Assembly: GCA_019748215.1 (NCBI GenBank)
Contig: JAIEPV010000034.1
Location: forward strand, 1 to 64,000
Length of the DNA: 64,000 nucleotides
Origin: Hyphomicrobium sp.
GTDB lineage: Bacteria; Pseudomonadota; Alphaproteobacteria; Rhizobiales; Hyphomicrobiaceae
Direction: 5' to 3'
Below are positions 39,437 through 49,137 of this stretch, in pieces. The notes beneath the pieces were generated by a model that ran no database searches, was not told where the DNA came from, and saw nothing but the letters and a program-made list of their open reading frames with translations. The translations under genes were made by a program, and so were the position numbers. How positions within the stretch are numbered: the first letter of the stretch is position 1; every line of letters starts with the position of its first letter.

Positions 39437-40051
39437 ATGAAAATCGGCAGCGGCGTTCCGCTGGACCTTCTGTTGAAGGTGCTACCGGCGACGTCCACAG
39501 TCGACGATCTAATAATACATCTTAAACCGAGCGAGATTTCTCAAACGCTTAGGCAATCGTCGGCGCCATTGGACGCTAGCTCAACGCCGCGTCTGCCCGC
39601 GCGCTCACCGTCTCCGTCGCTCGCACTTAATGCGCAATTATCGGCTGTGATTAGCGATGTCACCGCACCGCAATTGCAGATTCTGGACGAGGCTGTTGAT
39701 CGCGAAATCGCAGCGAGGCGCGTGGTCGGGCGATACGACATTCAGCAGCCTGGCGGCGCCGAATACAGCGAAGAACGCGTGTTGGCTCCTACCGGCTTTA
39801 ATCCAACCTACCCAACGGTTTCAAATCCCGCCGCACTCGCTTACGTTTCGTCCAGCTTTATGAAACCGTCTAGGCGTTCGAGCTATACTGCCGTGGTGCC
39901 GGCGCAAGCCCCGCCATTGGAACGGCGTGACGCCACCAAGGCGTCAGAGCAGGATAACACCCGGAGTGCCGGCCACATCGCAGGCAAGCTCTTACTTCTG
40001 GCCATCGCAGGGCTCACCATGCTCATTTGCGTCGGACTGTATGGATTTTGA
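39437..40051 (+). CDS. Hypothetical tail-anchored-like protein downstream of fliI
   Basis: 204 aa, Pro/Ser-rich middle, single C-terminal hydrophobic segment IAGKLLLLAIAGLTMLICVGLYGF. Confidence 0.5.
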   Translation: MKIGSGVPLDLLLKVLPATSTVDDLIIHLKPSEISQTLRQSSAPLDASSTPRLPARSPSPSLALNAQLSAVISDVTAPQLQILDEAVDREIAARRVVGRYDIQQPGGAEYSEERVLAPTGFNPTYPTVSNPAALAYVSSSFMKPSRRSSYTAVVPAQAPPLERRDATKASEQDNTRSAGHIAGKLLLLAIAGLTMLICVGLYGF

Positions 40052-40079: not shown

Positions 40080-40484
40080 TTAGAAAAGCTCAAGATCGTT
40101 ATGGATAGATCGGTCAACGAGGTGATTAATCGGCGACGACACTAATCGCCGTGACAAGTCCACCAGCGTGAGATTTTGGACGGCATGTCGCGCATTTATC
40201 TTCCAGTCCACCGGCATTATGGCGCTCATGGAGTTACTGAAGTCCGAAAGTCCGGACAGTTCCTGGCGCAGCAAATCGAGCTGCTGTAGTTGAACGACGC
40301 TTGATGAACTCGAAAAGCCTCCCGCTACCACCAGATTGCCAATCAACGTCTGCAAGTCTTCGACGACCGCTGCTAGGCGCCGCATTTCCTGGCTCATGAC
40401 AGCCACGATTTGCGCGGCGGACTTTTCCTCGTGCCGATCATCCAAAAATACGGACTGTGATACCGTGCTCATCTCATGCTCCAT
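40080..40484 (-). CDS. CheT/CheZ-like phosphatase candidate
   Basis: Helical 130-134 aa protein immediately after cheD (4 nt gap); SVVQLQQLDLLRQELSGLSDF contains D-x-x-x-Q; C-terminal NDLELF. Confidence 0.55.
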   Translation of the reverse strand: MEHEMSTVSQSVFLDDRHEEKSAAQIVAVMSQEMRRLAAVVEDLQTLIGNLVVAGGFSSSSSVVQLQQLDLLRQELSGLSDFSNSMSAIMPVDWKINARHAVQNLTLVDLSRRLVSSPINHLVDRSIHNDLELF

Positions 40485-40487
40485 CGA

Positions 40488-41051
40488 CTAAAACAGTTCT
40501 AGATCGCCAGCGCTGACGACGGCCGGCGCACTAATTTTGTTTGGAGCATGCTGGAAAACGTCTTGCTGCTGCAAATAAACTTGCCGCGCTCGTCCTGAAA
40601 CGGGCCAGTATTCAATGCGCCGTCCGGTTTTTCCCCCAGTGCTTCCACCGACGTAACGTATGCCCTCGTTGCAAAGAAACCGTTCAGCAAAGCCGACATT
40701 TCTCAAGCCTATGTCAGACAGCCCCCTGACTGGTTTGGCGCCACCAAAAACCTTAGCTTCGAGACATTCGCGGCGCGCGCCGACCTTCAGCAGGCCGTTG
40801 ACGAGCAGCTCCATCAGGTGCAGGCCGACGCGTTCGGCGGCGCCAGCATCATCGCATTCGGCAGGGCCCGGCAGCAGGAAATGATTCATGCCGCCGACGC
40901 CGGCGAACGGATCGCGCATGCATGCGGCGACGCACGACCCCAACACGGTCGTCACGCAGGCGTCGGGATCGTCGACGACGATAAACTCGCCCTGAATAAT
41001 GTGCGTTCGTTTTTCGAACGTTTCCGCAGCTCCAGAGCGTTGGCCGGTCAT
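40488..41051 (-). CDS. cheD: Chemoreceptor glutamine deamidase CheD
   Basis: [29 protein letters not shown] and [27 protein letters not shown]. Confidence 0.95.
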
Positions 41052-41437
41052 GTCAATTTTCCAACCACCGCTTCAATGCAGGCCTTTAAATTCGGAACTG
41101 TAAATGGCTTTGCCAAAAAGTTATTGAGTCCGTACTTCTTGCCTTCTTCAATGAGCGCGCGATCACCCTTCCCGGTGACTAGGATGAAGCCGACTTTGCT
41201 CGTCGGACCATGCTGGCGCAAAGCACGAAGCAACTGCATGCCATCGACCTTCGGCATATTGAGATCGGAAATGACCAGATGGCAGGGTGTCGCCACCATC
41301 ATTTTCAAGGCCTCTTCGCCATCCTTGGCCACCTTGAAATTAGTGAGGCCTATTTGATCGAGACCGTCGGTTAGGAGTGCGCGACTCACCGTGGTGTCAT
41401 CAACCACCATGACGCTCAACTGCTTCATGTTAGGCAT
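41048..41437 (-). CDS. cheY: CheY-type response regulator
   Basis: [20 protein letters not shown]...[19 protein letters not shown]...ILVTGKG...LAKPF. Confidence 0.93.
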
Positions 41438-42497
41438 TGGTTTTCCGAGTCCACTTATTAGAGTTGAGCGATGTTGCTGAAATTAGTTCTTGGCCTATCA
41501 TCCCAATCGGCAATTGTTTTTCTACGCCACCCATCTCAAATGCGACACGCGGCATACCGTAGACAATACTCGACGATTCATTCTGACCGAATGTATTGGC
41601 CCCCGCACTTCGCATAGCCAGCAATCCTGCCGCACCGTCGCGGCCCATTCCTGTTAGAATGGCTCCAACGGCGCGCGATTTACAGACTTTTGCAACCGAT
41701 TCAAACAGCACATCGACGGATGGGCAGTGACCGTTGATCTTGTCGCCACTTCGCAGTGAGCACCTCAATTGCGAACCTGCAGTAACAGTTAAATGCGACG
41801 CGCCGCCCGGCGCCAGATAGATACGACCTGCAGTGAGTGGGGCGCCGTCCTTAGCCTCTTCGACTTGAGCCGCACAGATGCGGTCCAGGCGATTAGCGAA
41901 GCTGGTTGTGAACATCGCAGGCATATGTTGGGCGATAACTGTCGGCGCGCAGTTGGCAGGAAAGTGCGACAGGACTTCGATCAACGCTTCGACACCGCCG
42001 GTTGACGCGCCGATCGCGATCAGCCGCCCGTCCGGCAGGTAGGACTGCTCGTCGGAGGCAGGTGACATAGGCGTTGCGCGCGCTGGTCGCGAGCCGAGCG
42101 GCCGCAATTTCAATCCAGCGGCAGCCTTCACTTTCGAAGCGAGTTGATCAAAATTATCTTCCGCACCTGGACGCGGCTTCTCGATGCAATCTACGGCACC
42201 GAGTTCGAGTGCCGTGATCGTCTGATCGGCGCCAACCCGCGTCAACGTTGACACCATAATCACCGGCGTCGGCCTCAGCCGCATCAGCTTCTCAAGGAAT
42301 TCGAGGCCGCTCATGCGCGGCATCTCGATATCAAGCGTAACAACTTCGGGATTGAGATCCTTGATGCCCTGGCGCGCTTCAATGGGGTTTTCAAACTGGC
42401 CAACCACTTCGATTTGGGGATCTCGCGACAATGCAGCCGCAATCAGACCGCGCATTGTAGCTGAATCATCGACGATCAAAACACGAACGGGCTTCAT
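41430..42497 (-). CDS. cheB: Protein-glutamate methylesterase CheB
   Basis: [23 protein letters not shown]; catalytic region [47 protein letters not shown]. Confidence 0.97.
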
Positions 42498-43384
42498 GCG
42501 CTGTCGACCTCGATCTTGCGGAATGCGGTGATGCCGTCGGGCGATAATAGCGAACTTGCCGGGCCCGAAATGCGTTCTGAATGACCGATATAGAGCGCGC
42601 CGCCGACCGGCAATAGCGACGCCATGCGCTGCCAAATTTTACACTGCGTCTCGCGATCGAAATAAATTACTACGTTACGGCAGAAGATTGCGTGGAAAAG
42701 TCCGCGCATCGGCCAGCCTTGCATCAAGTTAAGCTCGCGAAAGCTTACCAAAGATCGTGCTTCGTCAGAAATCTGGAAGCTAGGCTCATCGCGCACCGTA
42801 CACGGCGACGTCCATTTGCTTTTCAATGCCGGAGGAATTGCTGAGGCTTCTTGGCGATCATAAACGGCAGCGCGGCCTTTATTGACGACGTCTGCATTAA
42901 GATCGGTCGCTAGAATGCGAACATCCAGGCTCGGCGCCTCTGGCAGAATGGATAGTACGGTAAGCGCAATGGAATAGGGCTCCTGCCCACTTGAGCAGGC
43001 AGCGGACCATATGCGAATTTTTTCGCCGCGGCGCGCCGCCGGCACGATGGGCGCCAAAATTTTGCTTTTTAGGTGTTCGAAGTGGTGTGCCTCTCGAAAA
43101 AAACTTGTGACGTTCGTGGTCAGCATCGAGACCATTTGGTGGCGCTCGTCGACGTCGGTGCGTACAGCCTGGCAGTATTTTTCGAAGCTTGGCAGCGCCA
43201 ACGCGCGAATGCGCTTGGCCAGGCGAGAATAAACGAGCGAAGATTTCGACTCGTGCAGATCGATGCCCGCATATTCCTTGACCATCTGAGCGATGATCTT
43301 GAAATCGTGTTTTGAGAACGGCAGATCGGCGAGGTTCCGTCGCCCTTCAATCTGTAATTCCATCGTGTGTGGAGCCGCTTTCAT
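42494..43384 (-). CDS. cheR: Chemotaxis methyltransferase CheR
   Basis: [55 protein letters not shown]. Confidence 0.97.
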
Positions 43385-43848
43385 TGGGCAACCGGCGCAG
43401 GCGGCGGCAGTACGTTGTCGATCGTTACCAGACTGATCATACGTTCATCGATGGCGTGAACGCCGCGAACGAACGTCTTGGCGACTTCGGAGGCAATTTC
43501 GGGCGTCGCCTGCATTGCATTGGCCGGCGTCGTCAGAATATCGGAGACCGCATCGACAAGTATGCCAATCGTCTGCTTGCCGCATTGCGCAACGATGATG
43601 ACGTGACGCGCAGTCGGATCTGTCAGCGGCAAGCCGAAACGACGCGCAAGATCGACAATCGGCAATACCGAACCTCGCAGGTTAATTACGCCTCGGACGT
43701 AATCCGGCGCGTGCGGCAATGGCGTCGCTGGCGTCCAGCCGCGGATCTCACGCACCGACATGATATCAACACAGAATTCTTGTCCGCCGATGCGGAAAGC
43801 AACGTATTCTCTGCTTGAACTTTCCGCCGTAATTTGTTCGACCTGCAT
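43381..43848 (-). CDS. cheW: Chemotaxis coupling protein CheW
   Basis: FRIGGQEFCVDIMSVREIRGWTPATPLPHAPDYVRGVINLRGSVLPIVDLARRFG. Confidence 0.96.
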   Translation of the reverse strand: MQVEQITAESSSREYVAFRIGGQEFCVDIMSVREIRGWTPATPLPHAPDYVRGVINLRGSVLPIVDLARRFGLPLTDPTARHVIIVAQCGKQTIGILVDAVSDILTTPANAMQATPEIASEVAKTFVRGVHAIDERMISLVTIDNVLPPPAPVAQ

Positions 43849-43850
43849 GG

Positions 43851-46058
43851 CTAGGCGCTCCCCAAGGCTGCTACTTTTTCCATGGCGTACATCGTCAGGT
43901 CGCCTCGCGTACGGCGGACGACGGCATCAACGTCAAGAATAAGCGCGACACGCCCGTCGCCGAGAATCGTCGCAGCCGCGATGCCTGAGACGCCGCCATA
44001 GTTTTCTTCGAGACTTTTGATGACGACCTGCCGCTGATCTTGAATGGCATCGACGACGAGCGCGCTGCGGGCGCCACCTTCGGCTTCGACCAGGATAGTA
44101 ACGCCCGTCTCTGGCGCGATGGGCCGGTCACTGATGCCCAGCTCACAGCCGACATCGATCAGCGGAATAAACGTATTGCGGATCGCAATGACGCGGCCAT
44201 CGACACCAAGTCCATGCAATTCCGATGACTTGGGCCGCAGAGTTTCGACAATGGCCGTCAGCGGTACGACGATCGTTTCGCCGCCGACAGAGACAACCAT
44301 TCCATCCAGCACCGCCAAAGTCAGCGGCAAGCTCATTGAAAACGTCGAACCGTAGCCCGGCCGGGAGGAAATCGAGATGCGGCCACCTAATGCCTGAATC
44401 GACCGTTTGACGACATCCATGCCGACACCGCGGCCCGAGATGTTCGAAACAGTATCGGCCGTGGAGAAGCCAGGCAGAAAAAGCAGATTGTCGATTTCGT
44501 TATCGCTTAGAATCGCGTCGGCCGGGATCAATCCTTTGCGGATCGCCGCAGCGCGGACTTTTGGACGATTGATGCCAGCACCATCGTCAGACACCTCGAT
44601 GACAATTCGGCCCGAGCGATGTGCCGCTGACAACTTGACAACGCCTTCCGCCGGTTTGCCGGCTGCAAGCCGAACGGCGGGCGATTCCAGGCCGTGATCG
44701 ACGGCATTGCGAATCATATGCGTCAGAGGGTCAGCGAGACGCTCAACAACTGTCTTATCGACCTCGGTCGCGTCGCCTTCGGTTTTCAGCTTCACATCTT
44801 TTTGGGTCACATCGGCGATTTCGCGGACAATGCGCGACATGCGTTGAAACAACGGCTTCACCGGCTGGGCACGGATCGCCATCACGCTTTCTTGAATCTC
44901 TCTGGTGAGCTGTTCCAGCTCTTCGAGCCCGAGAAGAACAGCGGACGATCCCTCGAAATCTGCTTCGAGCACGCGCTGTGAGAGCATCGCCTGATTGATG
45001 ACCAGTTCGCCGACGAGATTGATAAGGCGATCGACGCGGTCGAACTCGACGCGAATGGTCGCCGGAGCCTGATTGGCGCTGGCTTTGGCTCGTGATGTGC
45101 CATTGGCGGCGTCATCAGTTGTTGGCGCTGTAACGGGGTTGTCGGCACGCGCGAGCCCGATCGAAGTCGAAAGCGGCACTGCATCCGTGGCCACTTGTAA
45201 CGGTCCGCTGAACGGCAAGGCAGCGGCTTCGTCGTTGTTGTCTTGCACCGAGCGCAGGAGCGCTGCGATATCATAGGCGTCCTCGGTCGGCGTCGCGGGC
45301 GCTTCGGTCTTGATCAACAAATGACAATCGCCGTTGACGAATTCGAAAACGTCATCGACGGACTGACGCGGCTCCGCAGTCGTCAGTTGCAAGTTCCAAG
45401 TTAAATAACCCGCCTGCGGATCCAAAGCATCGAGCAGTGGCAAGCGCGTTGTATCGCACGCGACGGCGACATTGCCGAGGCGTTGAAGCTCGCGGAAGAT
45501 CAATAGGGTTTCATTGGCCCTATCGTACAGCTCGGCATCAGCCGAGAACTCAATCAGAAATACCGCATCGTTGGCGGGATTTGGCGCTGGAAAGACGTCG
45601 TTGCCACCAATGTCGATAAGAGCCGGCTGGAAGTCGATCGAGCCAAATTCCTCATCATCTTCCGGCGCGTCGATCGCGACGGAGAGCGCACTAAGTTCTT
45701 CGCCAGTGGGCAACCAGCAGTCATCGTCAATGGCGTTACCGTCTCGCGACAGCTCGACAAGGTCTGCCAAAACGTCGGCCGAGCGCAATAGTACTTTCAT
45801 AACGTCTGGAGACGGCGCCAGCTTGCCGCCGCGCACGTGATCGAGTGCGGTTTCAAATTTGTGAGCAAATTTGACAAGTGACTCGAGCTTGAAAGCCCCT
45901 GCTCCGCCCTTGATTGAATGAACTGCGCGAAAAACCGAGTTTACGGTTTCGCTGTCCGTCGATCCCTCATTGAGGGCAAGCAGGTCGGCTTCAAGCGCAG
46001 CAAGCTGCTCCTGGCATTCCTGGAAAAACGTTACGCGTATTGCGGCCATCGCATCCAT
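43851..46058 (-). CDS. cheA: Chemotaxis histidine kinase CheA
   Basis: P1 HSIKGGAGAFKLESL; dimer/kinase LINLVGELVINQAMLSQ, DPLTHMIRNAVDHGLESP; CheW-like C-terminus. Confidence 0.97.
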   Translation of the reverse strand: MDAMAAIRVTFFQECQEQLAALEADLLALNEGSTDSETVNSVFRAVHSIKGGAGAFKLESLVKFAHKFETALDHVRGGKLAPSPDVMKVLLRSADVLADLVELSRDGNAIDDDCWLPTGEELSALSVAIDAPEDDEEFGSIDFQPALIDIGGNDVFPAPNPANDAVFLIEFSADAELYDRANETLLIFRELQRLGNVAVACDTTRLPLLDALDPQAGYLTWNLQLTTAEPRQSVDDVFEFVNGDCHLLIKTEAPATPTEDAYDIAALLRSVQDNNDEAAALPFSGPLQVATDAVPLSTSIGLARADNPVTAPTTDDAANGTSRAKASANQAPATIRVEFDRVDRLINLVGELVINQAMLSQRVLEADFEGSSAVLLGLEELEQLTREIQESVMAIRAQPVKPLFQRMSRIVREIADVTQKDVKLKTEGDATEVDKTVVERLADPLTHMIRNAVDHGLESPAVRLAAGKPAEGVVKLSAAHRSGRIVIEVSDDGAGINRPKVRAAAIRKGLIPADAILSDNEIDNLLFLPGFSTADTVSNISGRGVGMDVVKRSIQALGGRISISSRPGYGSTFSMSLPLTLAVLDGMVVSVGGETIVVPLTAIVETLRPKSSELHGLGVDGRVIAIRNTFIPLIDVGCELGISDRPIAPETGVTILVEAEGGARSALVVDAIQDQRQVVIKSLEENYGGVSGIAAATILGDGRVALILDVDAVVRRTRGDLTMYAMEKVAALGSA

Positions 46059-46077
46059 AACTGGATCCCTTCCTGGG

Positions 46078-46443
46078 CTAAGCAGCAACGCGTTTGATCG
46101 CGGCGACAAGCTTAGCGGGATCGAACGGCTTGACGATCCAGCCCGTGGCGCCAGCATCACGAGCTCGCGCCTTTTTGGCGTCGTCGCTTTCCGTCGTCAA
46201 AACCAAGATCGGCAGATTTTTGTACTGTTCGTCGCGACGCACGGCTTCGATAAAGCCGAAGCCATCCATTTTTGGCATATTGATATCGGTGATGACGACG
46301 TCGGGGCGGCGCTCTGCCAGAACCTCAAGCCCATTCACGCCGTCGACAGCTTGCATGACGTCGAAACCGGCATCGATCAGCGCCATGCGGAGCACATCGC
46401 GCATGGTGCGGGAATCGTCGATTGTGAGGATGGTCTTGGTCAT
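46078..46443 (-). CDS. cheY: CheY-type response regulator
   Basis: MTKTILTIDDSRTMRDVLRMALIDAGFDVMQAVDGVNGLEVLAERRPDVVITDINMPKMDGFGFIEAVR. Confidence 0.95.
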   Translation of the reverse strand: MTKTILTIDDSRTMRDVLRMALIDAGFDVMQAVDGVNGLEVLAERRPDVVITDINMPKMDGFGFIEAVRRDEQYKNLPILVLTTESDDAKKARARDAGATGWIVKPFDPAKLVAAIKRVAA

Positions 46444-46793
46444 TGTGCGTGTCCGTCCATGTGGAAATCGGCAGCTGTCAATCCGAGTAAAGCAATCGCG
46501 TCCAGTAGTTCGCTCGAGGCATTTTCGACTTTGAAAAGCACGCCGTCGGCGCTCCACGTACGGGCCGCAGACAACATAACTTGCAGAGACAATGTGCCCA
46601 CGCGGCGCACGTGCGTCGCGTCGATCGTTAAAGCTTTGTCGCGAGCCGCGAGCAATTGCTGATGGATCGTTGACGCCGCCGACGTCTCGAACATCTCGGG
46701 CAAGGTAAAGGTTGCGGTACGGGTTTCCGGCGAGGCTAACGCGACGCGAACTTTGGCCGCTTTGCGCTTTAGTGCTGGTTTTTTGCTCTTCAT
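46440..46793 (-). CDS. STAS-domain protein at head of che operon
   Basis: ALTIDATHVRRVGTLSLQVMLSAARTWSADGVLFKVENASSELLDAIALLGL. Confidence 0.8.
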   Translation of the reverse strand: MKSKKPALKRKAAKVRVALASPETRTATFTLPEMFETSAASTIHQQLLAARDKALTIDATHVRRVGTLSLQVMLSAARTWSADGVLFKVENASSELLDAIALLGLTAADFHMDGHAQ

Positions 46794-46794
46794 C

Positions 46795-49137
46795 TTAAAA
46801 CTCCTCCCAGCCTGTATCGGCGGCAGAGGCGGCACGGCGACCGCCAGCCGCGACTTTCAGCCGGGGTTGCGGTTTGGCGGCGCGCGGAGACGGACGGTTG
46901 TCGCGGGCGGATTGCATCGGCCGGACAGACATCTCTCCCGTATGGAACTTGCTGACGAGTTGGGCGAGTTCTTCGGTTTGCTCTGCCAACTTGCGCGTCG
47001 AGGCGGTAGCTTGTTCGACCATCGCCGCGTTTTGCTGCGTCACCTGATCCATTTCGTTTACGGCGGTATTGACCTGGCTCAGGCCATTGGCTTCTTCTGT
47101 TGCGCTAGCGGCGATTTTCGTAACGACGCTATTGATTTCGGCAACCCGCTCGACAATTCTGCCCAGCGACTGACCGGTCTCTCCGACCAGATTCACGCCT
47201 TGTGCAACTTGCGCGGAGGACGCCGAGATCAAGGACTTGATCTCTTTCGCAGCGCCGGCTGAGCGCTGCGCCAGCGCGCGAACTTCGGACGCGACGACTG
47301 CAAACCCGCGACCCGCATCACCCGCCCGCGCTGCCTCGACGCCGGCATTCAAGGCCAGAAGATTGGTCTGGAACGCGATTTCGTCAATGACACCGATGAT
47401 CTGGCTGATTTGCTTCGATGAACTGTCGATGGCCGTCATTGCTTCGATGGCGCGACGAACAACTTCGCCGCTGCGTTCTGCGTCAGCCTTGGCGGTGAGA
47501 ACGATCTCACGTGCATTATTGGCGCCACTCGCCGTCTTATTGACGCTTGAGGTAATCTCGCTGACGGCTGCTGCCGTCTGCTCCAAGCTTGCCGCCTGAT
47601 TTTCAGTGCGACGCGAGAGATCATCCGACGCGAGCGAAATTTCGTCGGTACCAAGCTTGATGCGCTCGGCGCCCTGCTTGACACTCGCGATGGTGCCTTG
47701 CAGTTCGCTGACCGCTGCGTTGAAATCGTCTTTGAGCTTAACGAATTCCGGCTCGACGTCGATGTCGAAGCGAATTTCAAGATTTCCGTCAGCCAAAGCC
47801 GCGAGAGATGCGCCGAGAACATTCACGATGCGTTGAATCTGGGCGTCGGAGTTGGATTTCTGCGCTTGCAATGCTCCAAGTCGCTCGACCATCTTGTTCA
47901 TTTCAGAGACGATGGCGTCATACTCGGGAATTACTTTCTCAGTTATACGATAGGAGAACTCACCGCCCGCAATCTTGTCGCTGGCACGCAAGAATGCATC
48001 CATAAATTTCTCGTGCTCGTGCGCGTAGTGCTCGCCTTCGACCTCTTTGGCCTTTGCGGCGATCTCGGCTTCTTTTGACAACTGAATGTTATGCAGAAGG
48101 TTTTCTTTAAACCGCTCGAGTGCTCCCGCGATCTGTCCGTTCTCGTTCCGATCGCCGATGAACGGGACAACGACGGAGGCATCATTATGGCTGATGCGGT
48201 CCATCGCGCTGAGTAGGTTAGAGAGACGCGCACTCAGTCCGCGCGCAATAAGCACGACGAAAATCCCTGCGCCGAGGACGAAACACGCCATCAATCCCAG
48301 CCGCCAGAACATGGCGGCATAGCTCTCGTTGATATGGTTCTGTTGCAAGGCGATAAACGCCTCGAATGTCTTATCGCCAAGTATCGTGATTTTACGGCTT
48401 ATTTTTTCGATAAGAACCCGATTTTCTGCAATTTCTTGAATGTTGAGAAGGGAGTCGGCAAGATGCTTGCTTTCAAGCTCGGCCAAATCGGCTTTGAATT
48501 CGGCAAACGACGCGCCGGCGATAGTCCGGCCTATCTGAGTGTCGTCAGAGCGCATCAAACTGTTGCCAGCCTCCACGGCGCGGTGGCTATAGCTCAGCAA
48601 GCGGTCGTAGGAAATAAGCAGATTTGCCCCGTTGTCGCCCACCAACGAACGCGACAACCCGTCAATTACCATGATCGCCGAAGCATAGGCGATCGGCAAT
48701 TCTTGCGTTGCCAATGCCATGGCATAGTAAGTATCGGAGTGTGGATCCAATACCATCCCTGATACGTCCGCCAACTTTTTAATAATATCTCTGACGCGGG
48801 CGGCTTTTTCCAGCTCATTGGAGCTACTCTTTAGCAGTTCAATTTCGTTTGTTGTGCCGAAGGTCACGTTCAACGCCGTCACCAGCTTCTCCAGGCTGTC
48901 AGGGAACGACTTGCTTATCGATTGGCTTGGTGCCTGAATATATTTCCATACTTCTTTTGCGTAACTCGCGCCTTTCACTTCGGTCTCGGCAACGTCTATT
49001 GACGCGAGACTCGCTTGCGCAAAAACTTGCAATTGAACAAGCGACGGAACGACAAACAAGCTGGCGATGAGGGCTAGCCGCTTCGGCGTCGATAGTTTGC
49101 TATTGATATAGGTCACGAGCATGACTTTTTTCCGCAA
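46795..49137 (-). CDS. Methyl-accepting chemotaxis protein with CheR-binding pentapeptide
   Basis: Two TMs, HAMP-like region, EIAFQTNLLALNAGVEAARAGDAGRGFAVVASEVRALAQRSAGAAKEI hairpin tip; C-terminus GWEEF. Confidence 0.97.
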   Translation of the reverse strand: MRKKVMLVTYINSKLSTPKRLALIASLFVVPSLVQLQVFAQASLASIDVAETEVKGASYAKEVWKYIQAPSQSISKSFPDSLEKLVTALNVTFGTTNEIELLKSSSNELEKAARVRDIIKKLADVSGMVLDPHSDTYYAMALATQELPIAYASAIMVIDGLSRSLVGDNGANLLISYDRLLSYSHRAVEAGNSLMRSDDTQIGRTIAGASFAEFKADLAELESKHLADSLLNIQEIAENRVLIEKISRKITILGDKTFEAFIALQQNHINESYAAMFWRLGLMACFVLGAGIFVVLIARGLSARLSNLLSAMDRISHNDASVVVPFIGDRNENGQIAGALERFKENLLHNIQLSKEAEIAAKAKEVEGEHYAHEHEKFMDAFLRASDKIAGGEFSYRITEKVIPEYDAIVSEMNKMVERLGALQAQKSNSDAQIQRIVNVLGASLAALADGNLEIRFDIDVEPEFVKLKDDFNAAVSELQGTIASVKQGAERIKLGTDEISLASDDLSRRTENQAASLEQTAAAVSEITSSVNKTASGANNAREIVLTAKADAERSGEVVRRAIEAMTAIDSSSKQISQIIGVIDEIAFQTNLLALNAGVEAARAGDAGRGFAVVASEVRALAQRSAGAAKEIKSLISASSAQVAQGVNLVGETGQSLGRIVERVAEINSVVTKIAASATEEANGLSQVNTAVNEMDQVTQQNAAMVEQATASTRKLAEQTEELAQLVSKFHTGEMSVRPMQSARDNRPSPRAAKPQPRLKVAAGGRRAASAADTGWEEF

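Follow-up and report, generated by a model that had tools for sequence, protein, structure and literature searches.

A divergent CheT homologue directly after cheD in a Hyphomicrobium chemotaxis operon, a candidate CheY phosphatase

The small gene that directly follows cheD in a chemotaxis operon of Hyphomicrobium sp., here called X, is a real gene and, by sequence, a divergent homologue of the CheT protein of Sinorhizobium meliloti. We base this assignment on a match to the CheT family NF047973, on an operon common to X and known cheT genes, and on strict conservation of a D-x-x-x-Q motif in an alignment of 27 family members (A3); together these support the suggestion of CheT made in an initial annotation of this DNA. 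We consider it likely that X is a CheT built on a helical hairpin that speeds the hydrolysis of aspartyl-phosphate on one of the CheY proteins of the operon, and X is therefore presented as a good phosphatase candidate of the CheT kind. CheT itself has already been described; X is a divergent new member, for which this interpretation is sound as a candidate assignment, and the additional value is moderate, lying in a wider family, three invariant residues and a C-terminal tail.

X was found in a window of 64,000 nucleotides, the whole stretch of DNA that was analysed (contig JAIEPV010000034.1, positions 1 to 64,000). Its open reading frame exists as initially annotated and encodes 134 amino acids on the minus strand, which had been left unsaid; it does lie directly after cheD, although 3 nt, and not 4, separate it from the cheD stop. 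The gene order given there, MCP-STAS-cheY-cheA-cheW-cheR-cheB-cheY-cheD-X, matches ours, with every gene from MCP through cheD identified by Pfam or NCBIfam. The features, all on the minus strand, are listed in operon order:

46795..49137, minus strand: chemoreceptor (MCP), C-terminal pentapeptide GWEEF (PF00015, PF00672; sequence)
46440..46835, minus strand: STAS-domain protein in the CheS slot (PF13466, E=5.9e-10; position)
46078..46557, minus strand: cheY, first copy, at the position of S. meliloti cheY1 (PF00072 at residues 43-155)
43851..46160, minus strand: cheA (Hpt, H-kinase_dim, HATPase_c and CheW domains)
43381..43848, minus strand: cheW (PF01584)
42494..43384, minus strand: cheR (PF01739, PF03705)
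41430..42635, minus strand: cheB (PF01339 and PF00072)
41048..41437, minus strand: cheY, second copy, at the position of S. meliloti cheY2 (PF00072; conserved position)
40488..41051, minus strand: cheD, receptor deamidase, tail GDLELF (PF03975, E=2.3e-18; NF010019, E=6.8e-68)
40080..40484, minus strand: cheT-like gene X (NF047973 match, invariant columns of A3, AlphaFold2 hairpin)

The second in-frame ATG of X encodes M5, at 40472. Because a GGAG lies six bases upstream of this codon and most relatives align from about the same residue, M5 is probably the true start, which would give a protein of 130 amino acids.

The sole NCBIfam match of X was to NF047973, 'chemotaxis protein CheT' (E=3.2e-8, 33.7 bits), with residues 17-120 aligned to positions 10-113 of 130 (104 positions). 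This score lies far under the 200-bit cut-off at which the family assigns its name to equivalogs, and for this reason we call X a divergent CheT homologue and not an NF047973 equivalog. Current annotation would leave such a gene unnamed, in agreement with the earlier expectation that it would be called hypothetical. X reached the cut-off of no Pfam family, and only chance-level Pfam matches were obtained with X and 17 relatives. All 18 members of an alignment of X with relatives in its own genus and family (A1) matched NF047973; the named near relatives are mostly Hyphomicrobium, and our literature search returned no report of CheT in this genus. A CheT homologue is also present in H. facile (L032). 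Of 249 genomes sampled from the order, only G057 and G504 encode proteins above the 200-bit cut-off, and in both the operon consists of the same ten genes, ordered as in the window. This order also recurs in the Hyphomicrobium relatives, bar a few rearranged or incomplete loci. Further CheT-like genes, again directly after cheD, were located in other families of the order, at L101 (1041-1385, minus strand), L112 (1865-2212, plus strand), L114 (1980-2312, plus strand) and L115 (1854-2210, plus strand). All four are detected by a profile built from 25 CheT sequences (E=7e-10 to 2e-18), and NF047973 misses them at E<=0.001. CheT-like proteins are thereby placed in Hyphomicrobium and several further families, below the NCBIfam cut-off.

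The resemblance of X to the CheT proteins of S. meliloti and Agrobacterium fabrum (NF047973; Agbekudzi et al. 2024) extends from its slot after cheD, within an operon that also holds two cheY genes and the gene of a STAS protein (CheS), to a length of about 130 amino acids, a D-x-x-x-Q on a helix and an aromatic C-terminus. It differs from them in sequence, being only 17-19% identical to the two sequences in A3 that pass the CheT cut-off (L021 and L022), and in its tail, which ends in LELF rather than FDFF.

As initially annotated, X contains QLQQLDLLRQELSGL, in which D70 and Q74 form the D-x-x-x-Q pair that is characteristic of CheZ. By itself this motif is weak evidence, because at least one copy occurs in 46% of composition-preserving shuffles of X, and we rejected it as a sole argument. 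It is conservation, rather than presence, of the motif that carries the case. Among the 27 sequences of A3, the others are 17-38% identical to X and mean column identity is 42%, yet Q67, D70 and Q74 (Q-x-x-D-x-x-x-Q) are kept in 27/27 members and are the sole invariant columns. Judged from this alignment, the invariance of D-x-x-x-Q is far beyond chance, and the likely active site is narrowed to three residues. The initial annotation had let its reading of the pair as a functional sign stand or fall with conservation in orthologues, and there the reading holds.

AlphaFold2, given alignment A3, models X as a helical hairpin with helices at residues 23-53 and 60-89, consistent with its earlier description as small and helical. 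D70 and Q74 lie on the second helix, where mean local confidence around the motif is 90-96, on a face directed away from the hydrophobic core: Q67, D70 and Q74 are 166, 134 and 174 degrees, respectively, from the hydrophobic face of this helix. Such a placement is what one would anticipate for a surface used in docking and catalysis, and not for a core. The initial annotation had also named as refuting a model with the two residues outside a helix that faces the CheY active site; as far as the model of X alone shows, with the pair on a helix and turned from the core, the reading stands here too. Searches of PDB sequences with profiles from A1 and A3 returned nothing beyond coiled-coil or keratin-type proteins and others unrelated to X, and these matches were dismissed as effects of composition.

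In alphaproteobacteria with two CheY proteins and no CheZ, the signal has been described as ending through a phosphate sink, a picture that CheT extends by a dedicated phosphatase. The target of CheT is reportedly CheY1, the phosphate sink. In CheZ, D143 contacts CheY and Q147 positions the attacking water. By analogy, D70 of X would contact CheY and Q74 would position the attacking water; a CheY~P phosphatase activity is inferred. By comparison with S. meliloti, the target would probably be the first CheY of the operon, as the phosphate sink, and X would also partner CheR; its variable linker and its C-terminal tail may serve as a docking peptide. Because of their orthology, X most likely functions as S. 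meliloti CheT does. According to the account in PMC12654446, which cites Agbekudzi et al. 2024 (Mol. Microbiol. 122:429), that protein has a D-x-x-x-Q motif, is predicted to have a structure like that of CheZ, acts as a phosphatase on just one of the two CheY proteins, and has CheR as a binding partner, with which it is found in complex.

The complex with CheR, as reported in PMC12654446, would also suit a CheT homologue that acts mainly as a non-catalytic adaptor, its phosphatase activity weak or lost, and that couples the ending of the signal to adaptation by binding CheY~P, CheR or both. A hydrophobic-acidic-x-aromatic C-terminal tail, common to CheT, the receptor and CheD, likewise suggests docking. 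We nevertheless regard such a role as unlikely, given that D70 and Q74 are strictly invariant amid drift in the remaining sequence and that a pure adaptor has no obvious need of the pair.

X is like E. coli CheZ (PF04344) in carrying D-x-x-x-Q on one of the helices of a hairpin, and the two presumably use the same hydrolysis chemistry. They differ in length (134 amino acids in X, 214 in CheZ), in the DLLDSLGF-type tail of CheZ, which X lacks, and in sequence, where no homology is detectable. PF04344 matched none of the 18 A1 members. The HMM-HMM comparison with CheZ, proposed as a check in the initial annotation, did not favour a relationship: hhalign of the CheT alignment against a CheZ alignment that included alphaproteobacterial CheZ gave a probability of 0.3%, and the motifs were not in register. 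Foldseek searches of the PDB with two models of X gave no match at E<=0.001, with CheZ absent from the best 50 of each; a bare hairpin is too common a shape to tell such folds apart. CheZ forms a dimer of long hairpins, a four-helix bundle, whereas the hairpin predicted for X is short, with no significant fold match. What survives of the earlier label 'CheZ-like' is therefore a possible common chemistry, and not a homology, which was found neither by Pfam, nor by profile-profile comparison, nor by fold search. On the same results it is very improbable that X belongs to the CheZ family proper and was shortened by evolution, even though its motif likewise falls on the second helix of the predicted hairpin. 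Least credible of all is an unrelated small helical protein with a chance D-x-x-x-Q after cheD: shuffled copies often carry the motif and helical hairpins are common folds, but the NF047973 matches of X and its relatives, the same slot across families and, strongly, the invariance of the motif count against it.

CheT and CheZ avoid each other in the genomes checked, which counts in favour of the function proposed for X. CheZ was above its cut-off in 0/29 CheT-bearing genomes, compared with 11/24 that have CheD but no identified CheT (Fisher p=3e-5, which overstates the evidence because related genomes are treated as independent and because G525, G490 and G456, three of the 24, were counted without inspection for CheT after cheD). 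The exclusion is also weakened by some CheD-bearing genomes that have neither protein. The genome of the window (92% complete) has no CheZ or CheC match. CheC, CheX and FliY also dephosphorylate CheY, as proposed for X, with another fold and motif (E-x-x-N), and CheC partners CheD in Bacillus; X differs from these proteins in having no CheC family match. Five genomes of the same genus that lack a CheT match (G002, G005, G006, G019 and G021) likewise have no match to CheD; they may have lost the entire che operon.

The C-terminal tails of three proteins in the operon are similar. On the minus strand, NDLELF of CheT is encoded at 40083-40100, GDLELF of CheD at 40491-40508 and GWEEF of the receptor at 46798-46812, and the hydrophobic-acidic-x-aromatic motif common to them is kept in relatives. 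CheT tails include NDLELF, GEFDDF..., GDFDFF and SGEFELF. CheD tails in the order are acidic-hydrophobic with Phe at or nearly at the C-terminus (GELELF, DDIELF, DVELFD, SIEFF), and this holds even at loci without a CheT after cheD. Of 29 CheT proteins, 25 have the pattern hydrophobic-[DE]-x-aromatic within their final 14 residues, compared with 11.5% of shuffled tails. When 181 long ORFs from the window and from regions of eight relatives were screened, 16 carried the pattern; nine of these encode receptors, five CheT, one CheD and the last another protein. Because the pattern was chosen after the tails had been seen, it is a lead and not a test.

GWEEF is of the type that tethers CheR or CheB, in which Trp/Phe predominate at positions 2/5 and acidic residues elsewhere (PMC7390727). 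The tails of CheT and CheD (DLELF, ELELF, EFDDF, DFDFF) in these alphaproteobacteria may mimic this receptor tether and dock on CheR or CheB at the same site, a tentative reading that we think rather unlikely. If it is correct, a single docking code would apply to the phosphatase, the deamidase and the enzymes of methylation. The common tail suggests a simple possible reason for the reported binding of CheT to CheR, which would be explained if CheT uses the docking site of the receptor. Alternatively, the CheT tail may dock on CheY, as the CheZ tail does; CheZ tails in the order (e.g., SQDDIDALFD) also combine acidic and hydrophobic residues, with a spacing different from that of the CheT tail.

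Two further observations concern the neighbouring genes. The first cheY (46078-46557, minus strand) appears over-extended in the ORF list: its receiver domain begins only near residue 39, and the gene therefore probably starts near 46443, next to where the STAS gene ends. A hypothetical ORF of 204 amino acids (39437-40051, plus strand), with a hydrophobic C-terminal stretch, lies between fliI and the convergent cheT. Pfam and NCBIfam gave no match for this ORF, and an ORF of like size and C-terminus occupies its place in a relative (L002, 829-1425).
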